Shown: piece after piece, positions 54,631-62,074 of the stretch | How the letters are laid out: every line of letters begins with the position of its first letter | Position numbering within the stretch: the stretch's first letter is position 1 | Source of the DNA: Defluviitaleaceae bacterium | Lineage (GTDB): Bacteria > Bacillota > Clostridia > Lachnospirales > WQUN01 | Length of the DNA: 64,000 nt | Assembly: GCA_009779835.1 (NCBI GenBank) | Contig: WRBD01000009.1 | Location: 1 to 64,000 of the forward strand | Direction: 5' to 3' | Program-made: the position numbers and the translations under genes | Notes under the pieces: generated by a model | Databases searched by the model: none | Told to the model about the DNA's origin: nothing | Seen by the model: the letters and a program-made list of their open reading frames with translations, nothing else

Positions 54631-57354
54631 TTACAATAACTTTGCTCTTACAGGTTGAACGTCTTTTACCAAGTTTGAAATTAATTTTTCAACTTGGTCG
54701 TGCTTGAACATTTGCTCGAAAATGATTGCGTTGTTTATTGTAAAATATGGGTCGTCGTGGTTTTCGTGAATGAAGGCTTTTGTATTTTTAACGGAAAATT
54801 CTTTCGTTGTTATACTGCCGGAAGCCATTTCTTCGGAAAAATAATATGTTAAAGTTTCGTTGTAGAACATTGGAACGGCGGCAAGATATATTCCGTAGCG
54901 CACGTATTGCATAGGCACGGCGGAAAACGAAGTTGCGCCATCTATACGATAATACAACCAACAGTCCTTGTCGGGCAAGCTTTTGTACATAAAAGGTTGA
55001 AATTTTTCTATAAACGGAGTGGGTACCGTTTTGTTTTCTTTGAAAACGGGGAAAAGAATTCCTTCGTTTTCGAGGGTGGAAATGGCGTACTTGATAATTT
55101 CTTCGGATTTGAATGTTGTAATGTTATATCGAAGATAAATTCCAGCAAGCCCCCACGCAAGTAAAACAGGAGGTTCAGCAGCGTTCAGATATATTTTTTC
55201 CAGTATGCCAAGCACATCGTAATTCGGGCGGGTAGAGTTTGCAAGCATTTCATATGTTGCGAGTTCGGTAAATTCGGTGAGTAAATTATTTTTTTCGCCC
55301 GCTGTGTATAATCGCGTGAATGCTTTTTGCGCGTGTTGGTCGAAGCTTGTCATTACGAGCGCAGATTCCAAAACTCGTGCGTCCAGTTCGGGCGCGGTGC
55401 GGTTGTCCTCGTCTGTTACCTGTGAAAGAATTGCCAATTCGCTGTAACTTGGGCGATAATTTTCTAAAACGAATTTTTGTAAATCTTCGTTGTAAAAATT
55501 GTTTACAAGTAAATTGTAACCTATTGCCGCAATTATTTCGGTGGTTTGCTCGTCGCTTTTTGAAAGCAACTTATTTACGGCTTCAAATAGAATTTCATGC
55601 GGAATTTTTTTGTGCTTCGCGTTAATTAGTTTCGCGGCGCGTGTTAATTCGCGGGTTTGCATATAAATACTTAAAAGTTGTTCGATAAAATCGTCGTCTA
55701 TGGAGCTTTCGTCTATCTCGCCGAAGCATTCGAGTGCCTGTTCAAAGCTGAATGCGTTGTAATGCAAACGCCCGAGCGCGACTAAAATTTTCATTTTATA
55801 TGATTTCGTTATGCCTTTTTCCGATAATAGAGCTTCAAAAACAGGCGCGGCGTCGTCGGGCGGGGTTTCCTGTGATAAATAATAATTCGCAAGATATGCC
55901 AATAGATGAAAGCGTCTGTCACCTTTTTGGAAGAAGTATAAATATAGTTCCGGGCCGGCTTGGCCAATCATTCGTTTAATTGTGATTTCTTCGTTAAGAA
56001 TTTCGCGTTGCGCTTTGCCGAGACAGGTGCAACCGGCGTTTTCGCTTACGGCCTCTATTGTAATCGGAGAGTTTCCTTCCGTTTCGTAAACTTCCATGCG
56101 GCGTTTTTCCGGCTCTGTGATATAAATAAAATGTACCGCAGAATTTTCTTCTGTGTGCAATTCAAAGAGTGTTAGATTTTCGCGTAAAATTTCTTCAGCT
56201 TTATCAAAGTTTACTCCGGAAATTCCCAACGCGCGAAAACGGTTCCATAAATAATAATAAATGCTGTTTACCTCTCGCCCCGTGATTCCTTCATCAAGGC
56301 AAAGCGTCCCAAGCTGAATAATTTTGTTTTGTGCTTCGGGAAGAAGGTCGCCGAATGCAGGGTCTGTAAGAATAAAATGATATACGTAGACGGCAAAAGC
56401 CGGCTCGGGGATGTCGGCGAGGTCAACGCTTGCCAAAAAATTTTTTAGCGGATACCGATTAATTTGAGGAGATTTATTTTCATATGCGGCACGAACCAGC
56501 GCGTTAAAAAGTTCGGGAGTGTAAATTTGTTTTTTTTCCGCGTCACGATAAAAAGCGAATGCTTCCGCCGACATATCGCCTTTACTTATGCGGTGCGCGC
56601 AAATATCTTTTAAAATTGGAGGATAATTACTTGCGGCATAAAGTTTTTCGCCCGCTTGCGGGTCTGCTGAAATTGCCGCGGATAATGTTTCCTGATATTT
56701 TGTCGCAACCGTTCCTATTTCCGCGCCACGGTTAGCCGCGTAAATTAACACAGGCAAAATGCTCGAGCCTTGAAAACCGCCTTCGGCTGTTTTGTAATAA
56801 CGAAACAGCCCTTCGTAAAGAAAAATGCTGTTACAGCCTGCATGAAGTGCTTCCGTTAAAAATGTATATGCTTCGTTGAGCTCGCTTGCCGCAAGATGCA
56901 GTAAGCCCTGCATAACTGCGTAATACGGCGAAGGCCGCTCGGTTTTTATGTGGTCGGCAAGTGCGCGGCGATACTTTTTTGCGGAACGCGCTCTGCGCTG
57001 GCTAAGTTCCAGATATGCGTACAAAAAACACAGAACTCCGTAATAAAATGGCGCGTTGTTTTTCAGAAAATTTTTATAACTCATCGCTTTATCAAGCATT
57101 TCGTTCGCGCTATCGTAATGGCGTGCTTCGATTGCAATAAAAATCGTTAATACATAAAGTCGCATATGCGCAATGTTTTTCCTGTGCGCGGCAATAACAG
57201 CGTGATTCGCCCGCTGTAAAAGAATACGCATTTCATATTCCGGTTCCAAAAAACAATACGCCTGCCACGAACGTAAAACAAGCGCAATCGTATGAGCCGC
57301 GTCATTTCGATTGCGCGTTTCGAGGTCTTTTATCGTTTTTTGTAAATCAAACAT
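54631..57354 (-). CDS. C-terminal part of a DUF5717-type protein (helical repeat protein)
   Basis: 907 residues from the ATG at 57354, placed four bases upstream of the preceding gene's stop-codon end in the direction of reading and served by GGAG. A TTG five codons earlier is less likely. It is almost all alpha-helical with TPR-like pairs ('YYGVLCFLYAYLELSQRRAR', 'LVALGRLHYNAFSFEQALEC') to about residue 780, then a beta-rich tail. As I remember DUF5717 proteins of Clostridia, they are single chains of about 1200 residues whose second half looks like this. Function unknown. No membrane segment or catalytic motif seen. Confidence 0.6.
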   Translation of the reverse strand: MFDLQKTIKDLETRNRNDAAHTIALVLRSWQAYCFLEPEYEMRILLQRANHAVIAAHRKNIAHMRLYVLTIFIAIEARHYDSANEMLDKAMSYKNFLKNNAPFYYGVLCFLYAYLELSQRRARSAKKYRRALADHIKTERPSPYYAVMQGLLHLAASELNEAYTFLTEALHAGCNSIFLYEGLFRYYKTAEGGFQGSSILPVLIYAANRGAEIGTVATKYQETLSAAISADPQAGEKLYAASNYPPILKDICAHRISKGDMSAEAFAFYRDAEKKQIYTPELFNALVRAAYENKSPQINRYPLKNFLASVDLADIPEPAFAVYVYHFILTDPAFGDLLPEAQNKIIQLGTLCLDEGITGREVNSIYYYLWNRFRALGISGVNFDKAEEILRENLTLFELHTEENSAVHFIYITEPEKRRMEVYETEGNSPITIEAVSENAGCTCLGKAQREILNEEITIKRMIGQAGPELYLYFFQKGDRRFHLLAYLANYYLSQETPPDDAAPVFEALLSEKGITKSYKMKILVALGRLHYNAFSFEQALECFGEIDESSIDDDFIEQLLSIYMQTRELTRAAKLINAKHKKIPHEILFEAVNKLLSKSDEQTTEIIAAIGYNLLVNNFYNEDLQKFVLENYRPSYSELAILSQVTDEDNRTAPELDARVLESALVMTSFDQHAQKAFTRLYTAGEKNNLLTEFTELATYEMLANSTRPNYDVLGILEKIYLNAAEPPVLLAWGLAGIYLRYNITTFKSEEIIKYAISTLENEGILFPVFKENKTVPTPFIEKFQPFMYKSLPDKDCWLYYRIDGATSFSAVPMQYVRYGIYLAAVPMFYNETLTYYFSEEMASGSITTKEFSVKNTKAFIHENHDDPYFTINNAIIFEQMFKHDQVEKLISNLVKDVQPVRAKLL

Positions 57355-57355
57355 G

Positions 57356-58534
57356 CTACCATTCTCCAACTGTCACCGGTAAAATTTTTTTAATTTCTTT
57401 ACCGGGGCTTTTGGCTTTTATTTCTATGACTGTTTCCATGAAGGGAAGTTTTCTGAAAAGCATTTGCGCGTTCATAAAAGCGGAAAGTTTTATTTCAAAC
57501 GGGATTTCGGCGCGCGCACCGACGGGAAAGGACTGGGCGATAAAGCGAATATAATTTTCCGGGCAGAAGACATAAATTTGCATATTTGTGCCGGAATTGT
57601 TAATTACTTCGATTGTACCGCGGTCGGCATAGCGGTATGAATCGCGGTTGAGTTTTAATATAAGTTGCGGCAAACGGCGGTAAACTATTTCCATTACCAA
57701 TGTGCCGATTTGAATTTGCTCCTGCGTGAAAGTATTTTTTATTTTTGTGGGGTCTATTGTGAATTTTACGGTTGCCGTGTTTGTTTCGTCGAAGTCGGTT
57801 GTGGTTAGCTTGCCTGATGAAAGCGAAAGCCAATCCGCTTCACAAACAAGCGGGGCTTCCACGTAACCCGTGTCGGATTTTTTTATATGAAATTCGCCGG
57901 AAATTATTTCGGAATTACCCGGTGCTTGGGAAAACTCTAAACGATTTCCGCTCTCTCCGTAATCGCCGATAATCGAAATCTTTGTTTTTTCTTTCAGTCC
58001 GGACAAAATAAAAAAATTATCCATTGATCGCTCGCGGTTTGCGTCTTTGTGTAACGATTCATACACTTCCATATATTCATAGCCGCTTGCCATAAGCAGC
58101 ATATAAAATTCACTGTCGGTAAAAAGCCGCCGCGCCTGTGCCGCGTGCGTTAGGGAATATTCGTAAAAGTCGTGGATGTTTGCAATTGTGTGACCGTCGG
58201 GTGTGGAAATTGACATTTTTGTAAGCTTTGCCGAAATCGGAATTTCTTTTTCACCGCCGTTGGACGTGATGAAAAATTTCGCGTTTACCGCTTCGCCTAT
58301 TCCCAAGCCCGCCGCCTGTGCGTTGAACGTGTAATTTATTTCTACGCTGTTGCCTTCAAATTCAACAGGTTCAAAAGAAAGCCCGCGGCACCGCGAAAGT
58401 ACACAGCCTTTAAGCTCACCGCCGCCCGTGTTTTTTATTTTGATTTTTCCCTTTTGCGTGTCCTTCGTTTCAATGAAAAGGGAGTCCGTGTCGGCGGATA
58501 GGATTGGTTTGGGGTGTTCGTGTTTGTCGCTCAT
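57356..58534 (-). CDS. N-terminal part of a DUF5717-type protein (Ig-like domains)
   Basis: 392 residues of beta-rich, Ig-like domains: 'GKIKIKNTGGGELKGCVLSR', 'NFTFNAQAAG'-type strand ('EINYTFNAQAAGLGIGEAVN'), 'FFITSNGGEKEIPISAKL' and 'VEAPLVCEADWLSLSSGKLT'. A short helical piece sits between (about 120-190). This matches my memory of the first third of DUF5717 proteins. Its stop codon nearly touches the start of the helical-repeat gene, so the two make up a split version of one protein. GGGGAG precedes the ATG. Confidence 0.6.
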   Translation of the reverse strand: MSDKHEHPKPILSADTDSLFIETKDTQKGKIKIKNTGGGELKGCVLSRCRGLSFEPVEFEGNSVEINYTFNAQAAGLGIGEAVNAKFFITSNGGEKEIPISAKLTKMSISTPDGHTIANIHDFYEYSLTHAAQARRLFTDSEFYMLLMASGYEYMEVYESLHKDANRERSMDNFFILSGLKEKTKISIIGDYGESGNRLEFSQAPGNSEIISGEFHIKKSDTGYVEAPLVCEADWLSLSSGKLTTTDFDETNTATVKFTIDPTKIKNTFTQEQIQIGTLVMEIVYRRLPQLILKLNRDSYRYADRGTIEVINNSGTNMQIYVFCPENYIRFIAQSFPVGARAEIPFEIKLSAFMNAQMLFRKLPFMETVIEIKAKSPGKEIKKILPVTVGEW

Positions 58535-58548
58535 TTTACCGCTCCCCT

Positions 58549-58827
58549 TTATTCATTTAAACTTTGCTCAATATACCAATTTCTCTCTATTTCGTCTTTT
58601 ATTTTAGAAAATAATGTTATGTTATTACGCCATGGCAAAAGGTCAACACCCCGTTGACTTTTTGTAAAATCGGGATAAGTTTCGGCAAATCTACGCAATA
58701 TTTCAATATTCCAATACAATTCCATGAGTTCCTTATTTGCACCCAATGCCGCCCTGTATTGGGTTATTTTTATTCGTGATTTAATATTTTCGAGTGCATT
58801 AAAGTATTCGCTATTATTAATCAGCAT
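58549..58827 (-). pseudogene. Shortened DUF1016 (YhcG-type PDDEXK nuclease) fragment
   Basis: 92 residues. 'ALENIKSRIKITQYRAALGA' and 'NKELMELYWNIE' match the start of DUF1016 N-terminal domains. Then about 40 expected residues are missing, and it resumes with 'LRRFAETYPDF', 'LLPWRNNITLFSKIKD' and 'ERNWYIEQSLNE', the later part of the same domain. The C-terminal nuclease domain (usually about 200 residues) is absent. The ATG still has AAGGTG before it. It looks like a deletion relic lodged inside the minus-strand operon; a small functional product cannot be excluded. Confidence 0.75.
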
Positions 58828-58833
58828 TAGTAC

Positions 58834-60084
58834 TCACCTTTTCGTCAAGTTCATAATCGTTTCTATATTGGTTCTCATAGCGTCGTTTATGGTTTGTGCG
58901 CCGGTTTGCGCGTGAAGATTAATAAACGCGCCAAGCCCGTCTCCTATGGATTGTGTGAGATTTTGCAATGAGGATTCATATGCGTTTAAGGAAACTTCCA
59001 GTGCTTTTTGGTTGCGTTCTATGAATTCGGATTGTTTAGCCATAGATTTTTGGCTTGATTGAAGTAATTTCAATTCGGTTTTCATTTCGTCTATTGCGGA
59101 GACTAGCGTGATTAACTGCTCTGAGAGGGCGTTGCTATGGCCTTTCATTTGCGACGCAAGCAAGTCTGATGCGGTATAAATTTTATCGCTTGCTTGGGAA
59201 AGACGTTCCGCGCCGCCATTTATTGCGGCTTGAATTTCGGCGGATTTTTTCAGCGCGGTTTCCCAATCTTGCAAAATTTTTGTAAGTGATTCGTTCATGT
59301 TAATTAGTTTTTTGTCCATAGCTTTCGCGACAATCGGGCCGATGGAATTTGCCGCGCCAACCATGCTGTGTGAAACTTCCTTGAAAGTATCGGACATTTT
59401 TGCAGAAATTGTTTCCATTGTTGTTTTATACGCGGCGGCTTGCCGGTCTATGGCTTCCGTTAAATCTTTTTTCAATCGAAGCAATGCACCTCCTGTGTCT
59501 GCCGAAAAAAACCGCCCTATTTCACGCTCGATGAAAAGAACCATTTCGTCTGAAAGTTGTGAACGAATTTCGCGTACATTAAAAAAAGCCGCCGCCGCGC
59601 GGCAAGAAACAAAAACGATAATCGCAAGAAGCCCGTAAACCGTTGCTACTTCGCCAAAAACAACAGCTAAAATAAACCCGGAACCCAAAAGCCCGAACTC
59701 CATTGTTTCAATGAACGGCAAAAGCCCGGTATATTTCCAGCCAAGAAAACCCATGCCCGAAACCGCACGTTCTACGATATGTGTCGTTGGTACGGCGGAA
59801 ACGGAGCGCTCTGCCACGCGAATATATTCTGCCATTGCTTTCTTTAAGATATGATGTTTGATACTCGCCACGTCAGCCTTGCTTTTTATTTCCTTCTCTG
59901 CCGTGTGCTGAAACGCGAGCAACACACCTCGAAAATGTAAATGTGAAATAATTCGCAATAAAATCAAGCCCGCCGCAAAACACAAATAGACAGCCACGAT
60001 AATCACATGATTATTGTGAGCGTGGCTGCCTAAAATCTCGTAAATATTTTCAAAAAAGCTAAAGAGACTGTTTATCTCTCTCAC
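58834..60084 (-). CDS. Membrane protein with MotA/ExbB-like layout and long coiled coil
   Basis: 416 residues. Hydrophobic segments lie at about 27-47, 120-140 and 145-165; a charged cytoplasmic loop ('HTAEKEIKSKADVASIKHHI') separates the first from the others. From residue 200 to the end it is a helical coiled coil ('SLQNLTQSIGDGLGAFINLH', 'QLITLVSAIDEMKTELKLLQ'). The TM-loop-TM-TM-tail order is that of MotA/TolQ/ExbB proteins and of ZorA. I do not see a clear proton-channel motif and no MotB/ExbD partner is present. GTG start overlapping the acetyltransferase stop. Function unknown. Confidence 0.5.
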   Translation of the reverse strand: MREINSLFSFFENIYEILGSHAHNNHVIIVAVYLCFAAGLILLRIISHLHFRGVLLAFQHTAEKEIKSKADVASIKHHILKKAMAEYIRVAERSVSAVPTTHIVERAVSGMGFLGWKYTGLLPFIETMEFGLLGSGFILAVVFGEVATVYGLLAIIVFVSCRAAAAFFNVREIRSQLSDEMVLFIEREIGRFFSADTGGALLRLKKDLTEAIDRQAAAYKTTMETISAKMSDTFKEVSHSMVGAANSIGPIVAKAMDKKLINMNESLTKILQDWETALKKSAEIQAAINGGAERLSQASDKIYTASDLLASQMKGHSNALSEQLITLVSAIDEMKTELKLLQSSQKSMAKQSEFIERNQKALEVSLNAYESSLQNLTQSIGDGLGAFINLHAQTGAQTINDAMRTNIETIMNLTKR

Positions 60085-60592: not shown

Positions 60593-62074
60593 CTAAACAA
60601 ACGGGTTTTCTCCGCAATATAACCTTCCGACGGGTTGATTATATGCCACGTCGCAGATTCCCAGCATTTTCAATGCGGCGAATAAGGTCTTTCCGATATG
60701 ACCGTAACCCATTGCAGCGTGGTGGGGATAGCGTTTGGCAATGAGAACATGACGATAGAAGCGCGCCATTTCGGGAATTGCTATTACGCCGACGGAGCCG
60801 AAAGTTTGCGGGTCTACGTCAATTGTTTCGCCTTGGGCGATGTATGAACGCAAAGTGCAGTCGGCGGTGGATTGCAAACGGAAGAGGGTAATGTCGCCGG
60901 ATTTCAACGCACCTTCAAGGGTTCCGCGGGTTATGTCGGGTTCTCCGTCGGGTTCAAGCAAACGTTTCATGATTAATTGGTATTTCATTTCGGGGTTTTT
61001 CAAGAGACTGCTGGGCGTGTTTCCACAGTGGAAGCCCATGAAAATATCGTTAATACCATAACCTCCGAATTTGGATTGTTCAGCCAAATACAAATCATGT
61101 GGCACGGTATTGTTAATGTCCAGCAAGGTTGGGGGAAGTTGAGTTGCGCAAGTCAGAATGTATTCGGAAAGCGCGCCGTAGATATCTGTTTCGCAGGCAA
61201 CGGGGATTCCACGCCCGGTAAGCCGTGAGTTTACATAACACGGAACCATTCCGAACTGTGTTTGGAACGCAGGCCAGCATTTATTCGCAAACGCAACGTA
61301 TTCGCTTGCGCCGGCGTGTTGTTCTGCCCAGTCGAGTAATGTGATTTCAAGTTGCGCAAGCTTTGGAAGAATCCCGGCTTGTTTATTGCCGCCGCCAAGT
61401 TCTTCCGCCATTTCCGCCGCAACTTTTTCTACTCGTGGGTCATTAGCATGTGCGTTAAAGCTTGCGAACAAGTCAAGCTCAGAGTTTTCCTGTACTTCAA
61501 CACCGAGGTCATAAAGCGGCTTAATTGGTGCATTGCAGGCAACAAAATCAAAAGGACGCGGACCGAAACCAAAGATTTTCAATTTTTTAAGCCCCAAAAT
61601 TATACGCGCAATGGGAATAAATTCCGCAATCATTTCCGCAACTTCTGCCGCCGAACCAACGGGGTATTCGGGAATATACGCGTTAACCTTGCGAAGCCCC
61701 AAATTATAAGAAGCGTTAAGCATTCCGCAGTAAGCGTCGCCGCGGCCTTGAATTAAATCCGCCGCGCTTTCTTCTGCCGCCGCAACAAACATTACCGGCC
61801 CGCAGAATTTTTGTGCAAGCATCGACTCCGGCCCTTCCGGCCCGAAATTTCCAAGATAAACAACAAGCGCGTTGCATTCCGCAGAATTTAACTCTGCAAG
61901 TGCTTTCATCGCGTCTTTTTCGTTTTCAACCGTTGTTTTAATTTCAACAAGCTTCGTGCCGGACATTTCAGCCGCACGAACCACTGCCCCCCTGCGTTTT
62001 TCCGAAAGTGTTATTGGGAAACAATCTCTGCTTACAGCTACTATTCCAAGCTTAACTACAGGTACATTTTTCAT
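60593..62074 (-). CDS. L-fucose/L-arabinose isomerase family protein
   Basis: 493 residues. Blocks 'EKRRGAVVRAAEMSGTKLVE', 'FGFGPRPFDFVACNAPIKPL', 'CWPAFQTQFGMVPCYVNSRL', 'GIPVACETDIYGALSEYILT' and 'FGGYGINDIFMGFHCGNTPS' fit the FucI/AraA superfamily; a Glu ('CETD'), Asp and His ('GFHCGN') in the C-terminal half are likely metal ligands. It converts aldose to ketose sugars. No fucose kinase, aldolase or transporter lies near, so the substrate is open. AAGGAG precedes the ATG. Confidence 0.85.
   Translation of the reverse strand: MKNVPVVKLGIVAVSRDCFPITLSEKRRGAVVRAAEMSGTKLVEIKTTVENEKDAMKALAELNSAECNALVVYLGNFGPEGPESMLAQKFCGPVMFVAAAEESAADLIQGRGDAYCGMLNASYNLGLRKVNAYIPEYPVGSAAEVAEMIAEFIPIARIILGLKKLKIFGFGPRPFDFVACNAPIKPLYDLGVEVQENSELDLFASFNAHANDPRVEKVAAEMAEELGGGNKQAGILPKLAQLEITLLDWAEQHAGASEYVAFANKCWPAFQTQFGMVPCYVNSRLTGRGIPVACETDIYGALSEYILTCATQLPPTLLDINNTVPHDLYLAEQSKFGGYGINDIFMGFHCGNTPSSLLKNPEMKYQLIMKRLLEPDGEPDITRGTLEGALKSGDITLFRLQSTADCTLRSYIAQGETIDVDPQTFGSVGVIAIPEMARFYRHVLIAKRYPHHAAMGYGHIGKTLFAALKMLGICDVAYNQPVGRLYCGENPFV

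Follow-up and report, generated by a model that had tools for sequence, protein, structure and literature searches.

A DUF5717 protein encoded as two adjacent genes, and its probable place beside a divergent Hsp70 system

When two neighbouring genes together resemble one protein of a known family, either a gene has been broken or the protein is made in two parts. This question is raised by a pair of genes, here called A and B, on the minus strand of the window, the whole stretch of 64,000 nucleotides that was analysed from a Defluviitaleaceae bacterium (positions 1 to 64,000 of contig WRBD01000009.1, assembly GCA_009779835.1); members of this family from the termite gut are described in passages of a study of metagenome-assembled genomes (PMC7024585). 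The pair matches DUF5717, a family without a stated function in Pfam. We consider it likely that DUF5717 is present here as two subunits, A and B, each with its own gene and probably translated together, which would act as a scaffold or adaptor of a dedicated, divergent Hsp70 system. The two genes and their junction are as follows.

57356 to 58534, minus strand: gene A, from ATG to TAG, 392 amino acids; the N-terminal part of DUF5717, with the conserved C-terminus ...VGEW.
54631 to 57354, minus strand: gene B, ATG start at 57354 to 57352, 907 amino acids; the rest of DUF5717_N and the DUF5717 C-terminal domain.
57352 to 57373, minus strand: the A/B junction, GGAGAATGG TAG C ATG, that is, the stop of A, a single base C (57355) and the start of B.

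The matches to Pfam place both products in the same family. Residues 8-284 of A match positions 18-281 of the 875 of DUF5717_N (PF18984; E-value 1.4e-39, 136.1 bits), and residues 38-602 of B match positions 319-874 of the same model (E 4.9e-15, 54.9 bits), followed by a match of residues 609-895 to DUF5717 (PF18983; E 7.7e-26, 91.4 bits); the curated cut-off is 25 bits for both models. About 100 residues of A (285-392) fall outside the PF18984 match. Judged by these matches, A followed by B are consecutive parts of one DUF5717 family, end to end and in the same order, as the original prediction had proposed from size and order, and the possibility that the halves belong to different families falls away. 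The N- and C-terminal models are here not in one polypeptide but in two reading frames. Since Pfam does not require the one-chain form, having two genes lowers the case for a one-chain DUF5717 protein, not that for family membership. Reading of the sequence also confirmed that the ATG of B lies one base past the stop of A. The frames of the two genes differ on the minus strand, an alternative TTG start of B lies 5 codons upstream of its ATG, and the Gly-Glu codons at the end of A may resemble a ribosome-binding site for B.

The locus was read in 95 genomes: the window's own and those behind loci L072-L171, all chosen among genomes that have a DUF5717_N match. Since just 9 of them belong to the large family f2, the fractions should not be taken as natural frequencies. 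The halves are adjacent genes in 65 of the 95 genomes, spread over 12 families, and one gene in 17, so that the check for one or two genes in relatives found both forms. In three genomes (G396, G496 and G510) the halves lie apart on one contig and in six on different contigs, which brings separate polypeptides to 74 genomes altogether (65 + 3 + 6). Three genomes, G394, G399 and G400, carry other genes where the partner half would lie while keeping both halves, which are clearly unlinked; in G391 and G542 the halves sit at contig ends and are ambiguous, and G500 has a contig break within B. Only one half was found in the remaining four (G392, G398, G631 and G279), each time B; the assemblies of the genus-mates G392 and G398 are 92% and 78% complete. 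In the f2 genome G279 (locus L147), the B half runs to 853 amino acids from its first start codon, and the gene upstream of it resembles metK by eye.

Of the 65 adjacent pairs, 44 have an in-frame ATG of B no more than 20 bases from the stop of A, whereas same-size windows inside B contain one at a rate of 0.24; a looser count of 49/65, which took the nearest ATG, GTG or TTG start, was biased towards the result, and the ATG-only count is used here. The ...GEW end precedes the stop in 20 of 33 A genes with complete ends from independent assemblies of the window's family. It is retained in G394, G399 and G396, where B does not lie directly downstream of A, and the idea that this end is a mere ribosome-binding site for B is unsupported, since in these three genomes B lies elsewhere or far off. 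In G600 (L103), a single in-frame TGA within the DUF5717_N match is the stop codon of A, with the ATG of B 9 bases on.

Both halves are under purifying selection, with a ratio of nonsynonymous to synonymous substitution rates (dN/dS) of about 0.05-0.16. Among 9 pairs of genomes, A gave usable values in 6 (0.054-0.156; two pairs were saturated and one lacked a half) and B in 8 (0.058-0.140; one pair was saturated), figures that are rough because many dS values exceed 1. The unlinked pair G394/G399 gives 0.125 for A and 0.140 for B. In addition, for 75 genomes, none of them from f2 or f104, the distances of A and B between genomes correlate with r 0.948, against a maximum of 0.089 in 200 shuffles; this reflects common descent of the halves, not contact.

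These data bear on two ways in which the split could be trivial. A frameshift introduced into a single gene by sequencing or assembly was suggested by the frames being one base apart, such that an insertion or deletion within about 15 bases would join them, and an error at 57355 had been named in advance as what would undo the prediction. The stop after ...GEW in independently assembled relatives, and halves in unrelated places in several genomes, exclude such an error as the cause. The original prediction had also allowed that the split might be the first sign of decay, a recent break in a protein on its way out, and two features of the window's surroundings could be taken that way: no Hsp70 genes accompany A and B in the window's genus, and in the sister genome G396 the two genes lie about 2 kilobases apart. 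Decay is nonetheless refuted in our view, or at best very remote, given the low dN/dS of both halves, even where they have survived unlinked, and their adjacency in 12 families. The two-gene form is no accident: it is found widely and is stably kept.

One-gene forms were found among the loci read in 8 of 9 f2 genomes, in all three of f104, in the single f96 genome (G423), in G452 of f101 and in four genomes of the genus g267 (f106), two of which have identical B parts; their open reading frames span 823-1,335 amino acids (n=17). Open frames of 1,288-1,352 amino acids in f5, f91, f92 and f101 were rejected as further one-gene forms, since in-frame stops lie between A and B. The four g267 forms, all of one genus, are the only ones of the 17 to keep all of A, including the third of its predicted immunoglobulin (Ig)-like domains, Ig3 (described below). 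The remaining 13 have a B part that begins earlier, at residue 173-407 compared with 463-467, and lack the third sandwich wholly or in part; both features would follow from a single deletion that took in Ig3, the stop codon and the beginning of B. In a tree of B (97 rows, unrooted, with rows lacking a found A half counted as split), the g267 group is nested among split f106 relatives, and joining is therefore the derived state there. The tree requires 6 changes of state; leaving out G279 brings this to 5, and setting aside six long-branch or odd rows brings it to 2, so recurrence outside g267 is weakly suggested. The word fission presupposes an ancestral single gene; as the tree is unrooted, we claim no ancestral state.

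What kind of proteins are these halves? AlphaFold2 gave a model of A (16 rows) with a mean predicted local distance difference test score (pLDDT) of 87.4 and a predicted template modelling score (pTM) of 0.59, and a model of B (21 rows) with 88.3 and 0.56. The predicted parts are these.

58223 to 58501, minus strand: Ig1 of A, residues 12-104, beta-sandwich (AlphaFold2 and fold comparison).
58004 to 58177, minus strand: helical segment of A, residues 120-177 (AlphaFold2).
57674 to 57979, minus strand: Ig2 of A, residues 186-287, beta-sandwich (AlphaFold2 and fold comparison).
57368 to 57664, minus strand: Ig3 of A, residues 291-389, beta-sandwich outside the Pfam match (AlphaFold2).
56176 to 57345, minus strand: helical solenoid 1 of B, residues 4-393 (AlphaFold2).
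55972 to 56169, minus strand: beta-rich part between the solenoids of B, residues 396-461 (AlphaFold2).
55003 to 55953, minus strand: helical solenoid 2 of B, residues 468-784 (AlphaFold2 and TPR similarity).
54787 to 55002, minus strand: C-terminal beta part of B, residues 785-856, with further helices after it (AlphaFold2).

The models agree with the first description of A as Ig-like and of B as a helical repeat, with the two beta-rich parts of B in addition. A is predicted to consist of three Ig-like sandwiches of PapD/ASH type, with no kinship claimed. Its folds compare with OCRL1 (3qbt; Z 11.1, root-mean-square deviation (rmsd) 3.0, 106 residues aligned), a FimC-type chaperone (9fxb; Z 11.1, rmsd 2.0, 94 aligned), HYDIN (2ys4; Z 10.6, rmsd 3.6, 100 aligned) and CEP192 (Z 10.0), the PapD/ASH set spanning an rmsd of 2.0-4.6 over 94-106 residues; multi-domain chains of the ciliary central pair are also among the closest solved folds. 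The class is not specific, since Ig-like domains of glycosidases score equally (3zmr, Z 11.4; 6nps, Z 11.0). In sequence, A has no significant match to a family of the PapD/ASH fold, the only match being Cep192_D6, which with 16.9 bits stays below its cut-off of 35 (E 0.0076), and a search of the PDB with the A profile returned nothing usable (best E 0.24).

B, in turn, is predicted to be a TPR-like helical solenoid with two beta-rich parts, and it carries a TPR signature in its sequence: a portion of solenoid 2 shows similarity to designed TPR chains and to LapB, the latter with E 1.1e-7 at profile positions 431-541. The Pfam scan reported no TPR family for B. A Foldseek search with B returned many eukaryotic TPR scaffolds at TM-scores of 0.1-0.3, which speak for a common arrangement only. 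In the families other than f2, conservation along B is highest at residues 801-850, a block that overlaps the C-terminal beta part.

A possible function is suggested by the company that these genes keep. Neighbours were assigned by Pfam in ten groups, with one representative each, and in most families the order is a membrane coiled-coil protein (c4, where present), A, B, Hsp70-1, a GrpE-like protein, DUF5716 and further Hsp70s. The genes that come next downstream of B include an Hsp70 of neighbour group c2 in 12/12 loci of f5, 8/9 of f101, 8/8 of f106, 3/3 of f104, 3/4 of f99 and 12/31 of f1. In f2, which is probably the Lachnospiraceae, DUF5716 lies downstream of B in six of the eight loci; in the other two a longer opposite-strand frame covers the site in our map, and the DUF5716 search places DUF5716 there. 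A and B are linked to Hsp70 genes in most families, and the two DUF families occur together: among 392 genomes of the window's order, DUF5717 is found in 229 and DUF5716 in 225, with 220 having both, 9 DUF5717 alone and 5 DUF5716 alone (lists compared by eye). DUF5717 was present in 36 of the 38 f1 genomes seen. DUF5716 may itself be partly Hsp70-like, as in f5, though not in f2, it has a match to HSP70 as well (E 1.4e-7).

In genus-mates of the window's genome, the triad of Hsp70-1, GrpE-like protein and DUF5716 lies on other contigs than A and B. Among 12 f1 genomes looked at for chaperone genes elsewhere, the three are together in 8, three (G396, G409 and G503) have only the GrpE-like protein and DUF5716 in that stretch, and G399 has DUF5716 alone, on a contig of 3 kilobases. 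The window's genome carries, on contig C51, Hsp70-2 (549 amino acids) and an Hsp70 with a VWA domain (699 amino acids; VWA_4, E 1.5e-10); its DUF5716 match is sub-cut-off and lies inside an Hsp70. This Hsp70-VWA, at L182:4299-6395, has its VWA domain at the C-terminus, and eight similar proteins of 695-727 amino acids end in nearly identical 25 residues, the domain being shown for the C51 protein only. A long GrpE-like protein was found in three of four genomes outside f2, the window's own being the exception.

Upstream of A, the window holds the following.

58834 to 60084, minus strand: c4, the upstream partner, 416 amino acids, with hydrophobic segments within 24-58 and 124-171, then a long coiled coil.
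58549 to 58827, minus strand: an open reading frame of 92 amino acids between c4 and A, matching part of DUF1016_N (positions 68-118 of 137, E 1.6e-13).
60593 to 62074, minus strand: an isomerase-like open reading frame of 493 amino acids, with a weak sulfoquinovose isomerase match (80 bits against a cut-off of 700).

The DUF1016_N frame has the appearance of a gene fragment lodged within the operon. c4 lies within two genes upstream of A in 26/32 loci of f1, 11/12 of f101 and 1/12 of f5, and in none of those of f106 (0/8), f104 (0/3) and f2 (0/8). Its coiled coil is weakly similar to those of ZorA (E 1.3e-4) and LmuB (E 3.7e-5), probably through the coiled coil only.

Hsp70-1 is itself unusual. 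In this protein of about 560 amino acids, the HSP70 match stops at position 493 of 599, and the lid part of the model is therefore missing. Each of the 60 distinct copies whose ends are complete, drawn from 60 genomes, terminates in the motif V[DE]x[LM]Y followed by 0-3 residues, which suggests this tail as a candidate ligand for B.

From linkage and co-occurrence, we infer that DUF5717 works jointly with an Hsp70 system whose members would be the lidless Hsp70-1, a GrpE-like exchange factor, the partly Hsp70-like DUF5716, Hsp70-2 and Hsp70-VWA, with c4 just upstream of A as a further member in many lineages. A and B would assemble into one adaptor, in which the Ig-like sandwiches of A could bind clients or the membrane protein, while the TPR-like solenoid of B would hold the Hsp70 partners, perhaps through the invariant tail of Hsp70-1; translational coupling would keep A and B at equal dose. 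It is tempting to go further and speculate, doubtful as this stronger version is, that the A/B adaptor anchors the lidless Hsp70 team: B would grip the V[DE]x[LM]Y tail as an independently evolved counterpart of the eukaryotic EEVD-TPR pairing, the PapD-like sandwiches of A would link to clients or to the membrane coiled-coil protein, and splitting and joining would have recurred at a single domain border, accompanied in several lineages by loss of the third sandwich.

Several observations weigh against placing A and B in this Hsp70 system. In the window's own genus the Hsp70 genes do not stand beside them, and the assembly to which the window belongs, 80% complete, yielded no Hsp70-1, GrpE-like protein or DUF5716. 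The long GrpE-like protein is absent from all nine f2 genomes searched, although f2 has DUF5717 and DUF5716 (G087 has a sub-cut-off GrpE match in a frame of 318 amino acids), and five of the nine have no Hsp70 beyond DnaK and short MreB-like matches, further Hsp70s lying away from DUF5717 in G087, G137 and G202, with fragments in G279. DUF5717 can thus exist without Hsp70-1 and its exchange factor. As for the proposed contacts, Hsp70-1 is conserved throughout (mean 0.81 per column), which makes its invariant tail only moderately striking, suggestive and not proof; a comparison of conservation between f2 and the other families singled out no Hsp70-binding region in B; and the correlation of A and B distances is expected from plain vertical descent. 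Moreover, G279 has B with no detectable A.

This last genome also speaks for the main rival, that A and B are functionally separate and merely share an operon, A acting with the membrane protein c4 and B with the Hsp70s, the one-chain forms being incidental. G400 divides along exactly this line, with c4 and A at one place and B, Hsp70, GrpE, DUF5716 and Hsp70 at another; such an arrangement fits a division of labour within one adaptor, and also fits A and B working separately. We hold separate functions to be unlikely, as one-gene forms exist in several families, adjacency is the commonest state of the halves, and c4 is not beside A in f106, f104, f2 and most of f5. The locus could instead be a defence or conflict module like the GTPase/Hsp70/GrpE systems of Kaur et al. 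(2020), and not a housekeeping chaperone system. Those systems include, in the parts of that work considered here, Hsp70, GrpE and FNIII/TPR proteins and, in another theme, VWA (PMC7159879), and weak PADLOC matches point the same way, those of LmuB and ZorA to the coiled coil of c4 and of PDC-M61B to both C51 Hsp70s (E 1e-7 and 2e-7). Still, A and B themselves have no PADLOC match, the ten neighbour groups scanned contain no GTPase, and the presence of DUF5717 in nearly all f1 genomes seen and in more than half of those of the order is unlike a patchy defence island, all of which makes a defence role improbable. A joint adaptor of the Hsp70 system thus remains our preferred reading of A and B.

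That a Pfam family should come in a two-gene version is nothing out of the ordinary; what makes the case interesting is the unstudied Hsp70 system and a protein that is cut at a natural border. DUF5717 and DUF5716 each occur in over half of the sampled genomes of the order, and neither has a stated function in Pfam. The two-gene form marks where DUF5717 is naturally cut, so its halves can be produced and tested singly, and the neighbourhood in relatives gives a concrete hypothesis, that of an adaptor for a dedicated system of several Hsp70s, among them a lidless one, which has a GrpE-like protein of its own.

In the searched literature, no paper names DUF5717, PF18984, PF18983 or PF18980, DUF5716 is named once, in an unrelated paper, and searches for combinations of Hsp70, GrpE, VWA and TPR and of ASH and PapD gave no listing describing this system. 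The covered passages of a study on DnaK duplication (PMC11019930) make no mention of the DUF5717 family.

Compared with one-chain DUF5717 proteins, A and B match the same models (PF18983 and PF18984) in the same order and above the cut-offs; the differences are the two genes and Ig3, which so few one-gene relatives have kept. With the PapD-like/ASH domains of HYDIN, CEP192 and OCRL1, the domains of A share a predicted fold, without a significant sequence relation.

In eukaryotes, the C-terminal EEVD tail of Hsp70 is bound by TPR co-chaperones. Here, likewise, a conserved short acidic C-terminus of an Hsp70 is encoded beside a TPR-like protein; the motif differs, it sits on an Hsp70 without the lid part of the model, and its binding to B is hypothetical.

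A further parallel is the GAP1-N2 theme, in which HSP70 and GrpE occur together with FNIII-TPR or FNIII-DnaJ proteins (Kaur et al. 2020, PMC7159879). The main text of that paper does not contain the string DUF57. The theme has a GTPase, whereas the ten neighbour groups scanned here by Pfam, which do not cover every neighbour, have none; nor is its Hsp70-only protein said, in the passages considered, to carry a VWA domain or a V[DE]x[LM]Y tail (PMC7159879). In both cases, however, Hsp70, GrpE and a beta-sandwich/TPR protein come together in firmicutes with a further Hsp70-like protein, and as far as those passages go, the HSP70/GrpE/FNIII-TPR theme is the nearest described setting for A and B (PMC7159879).

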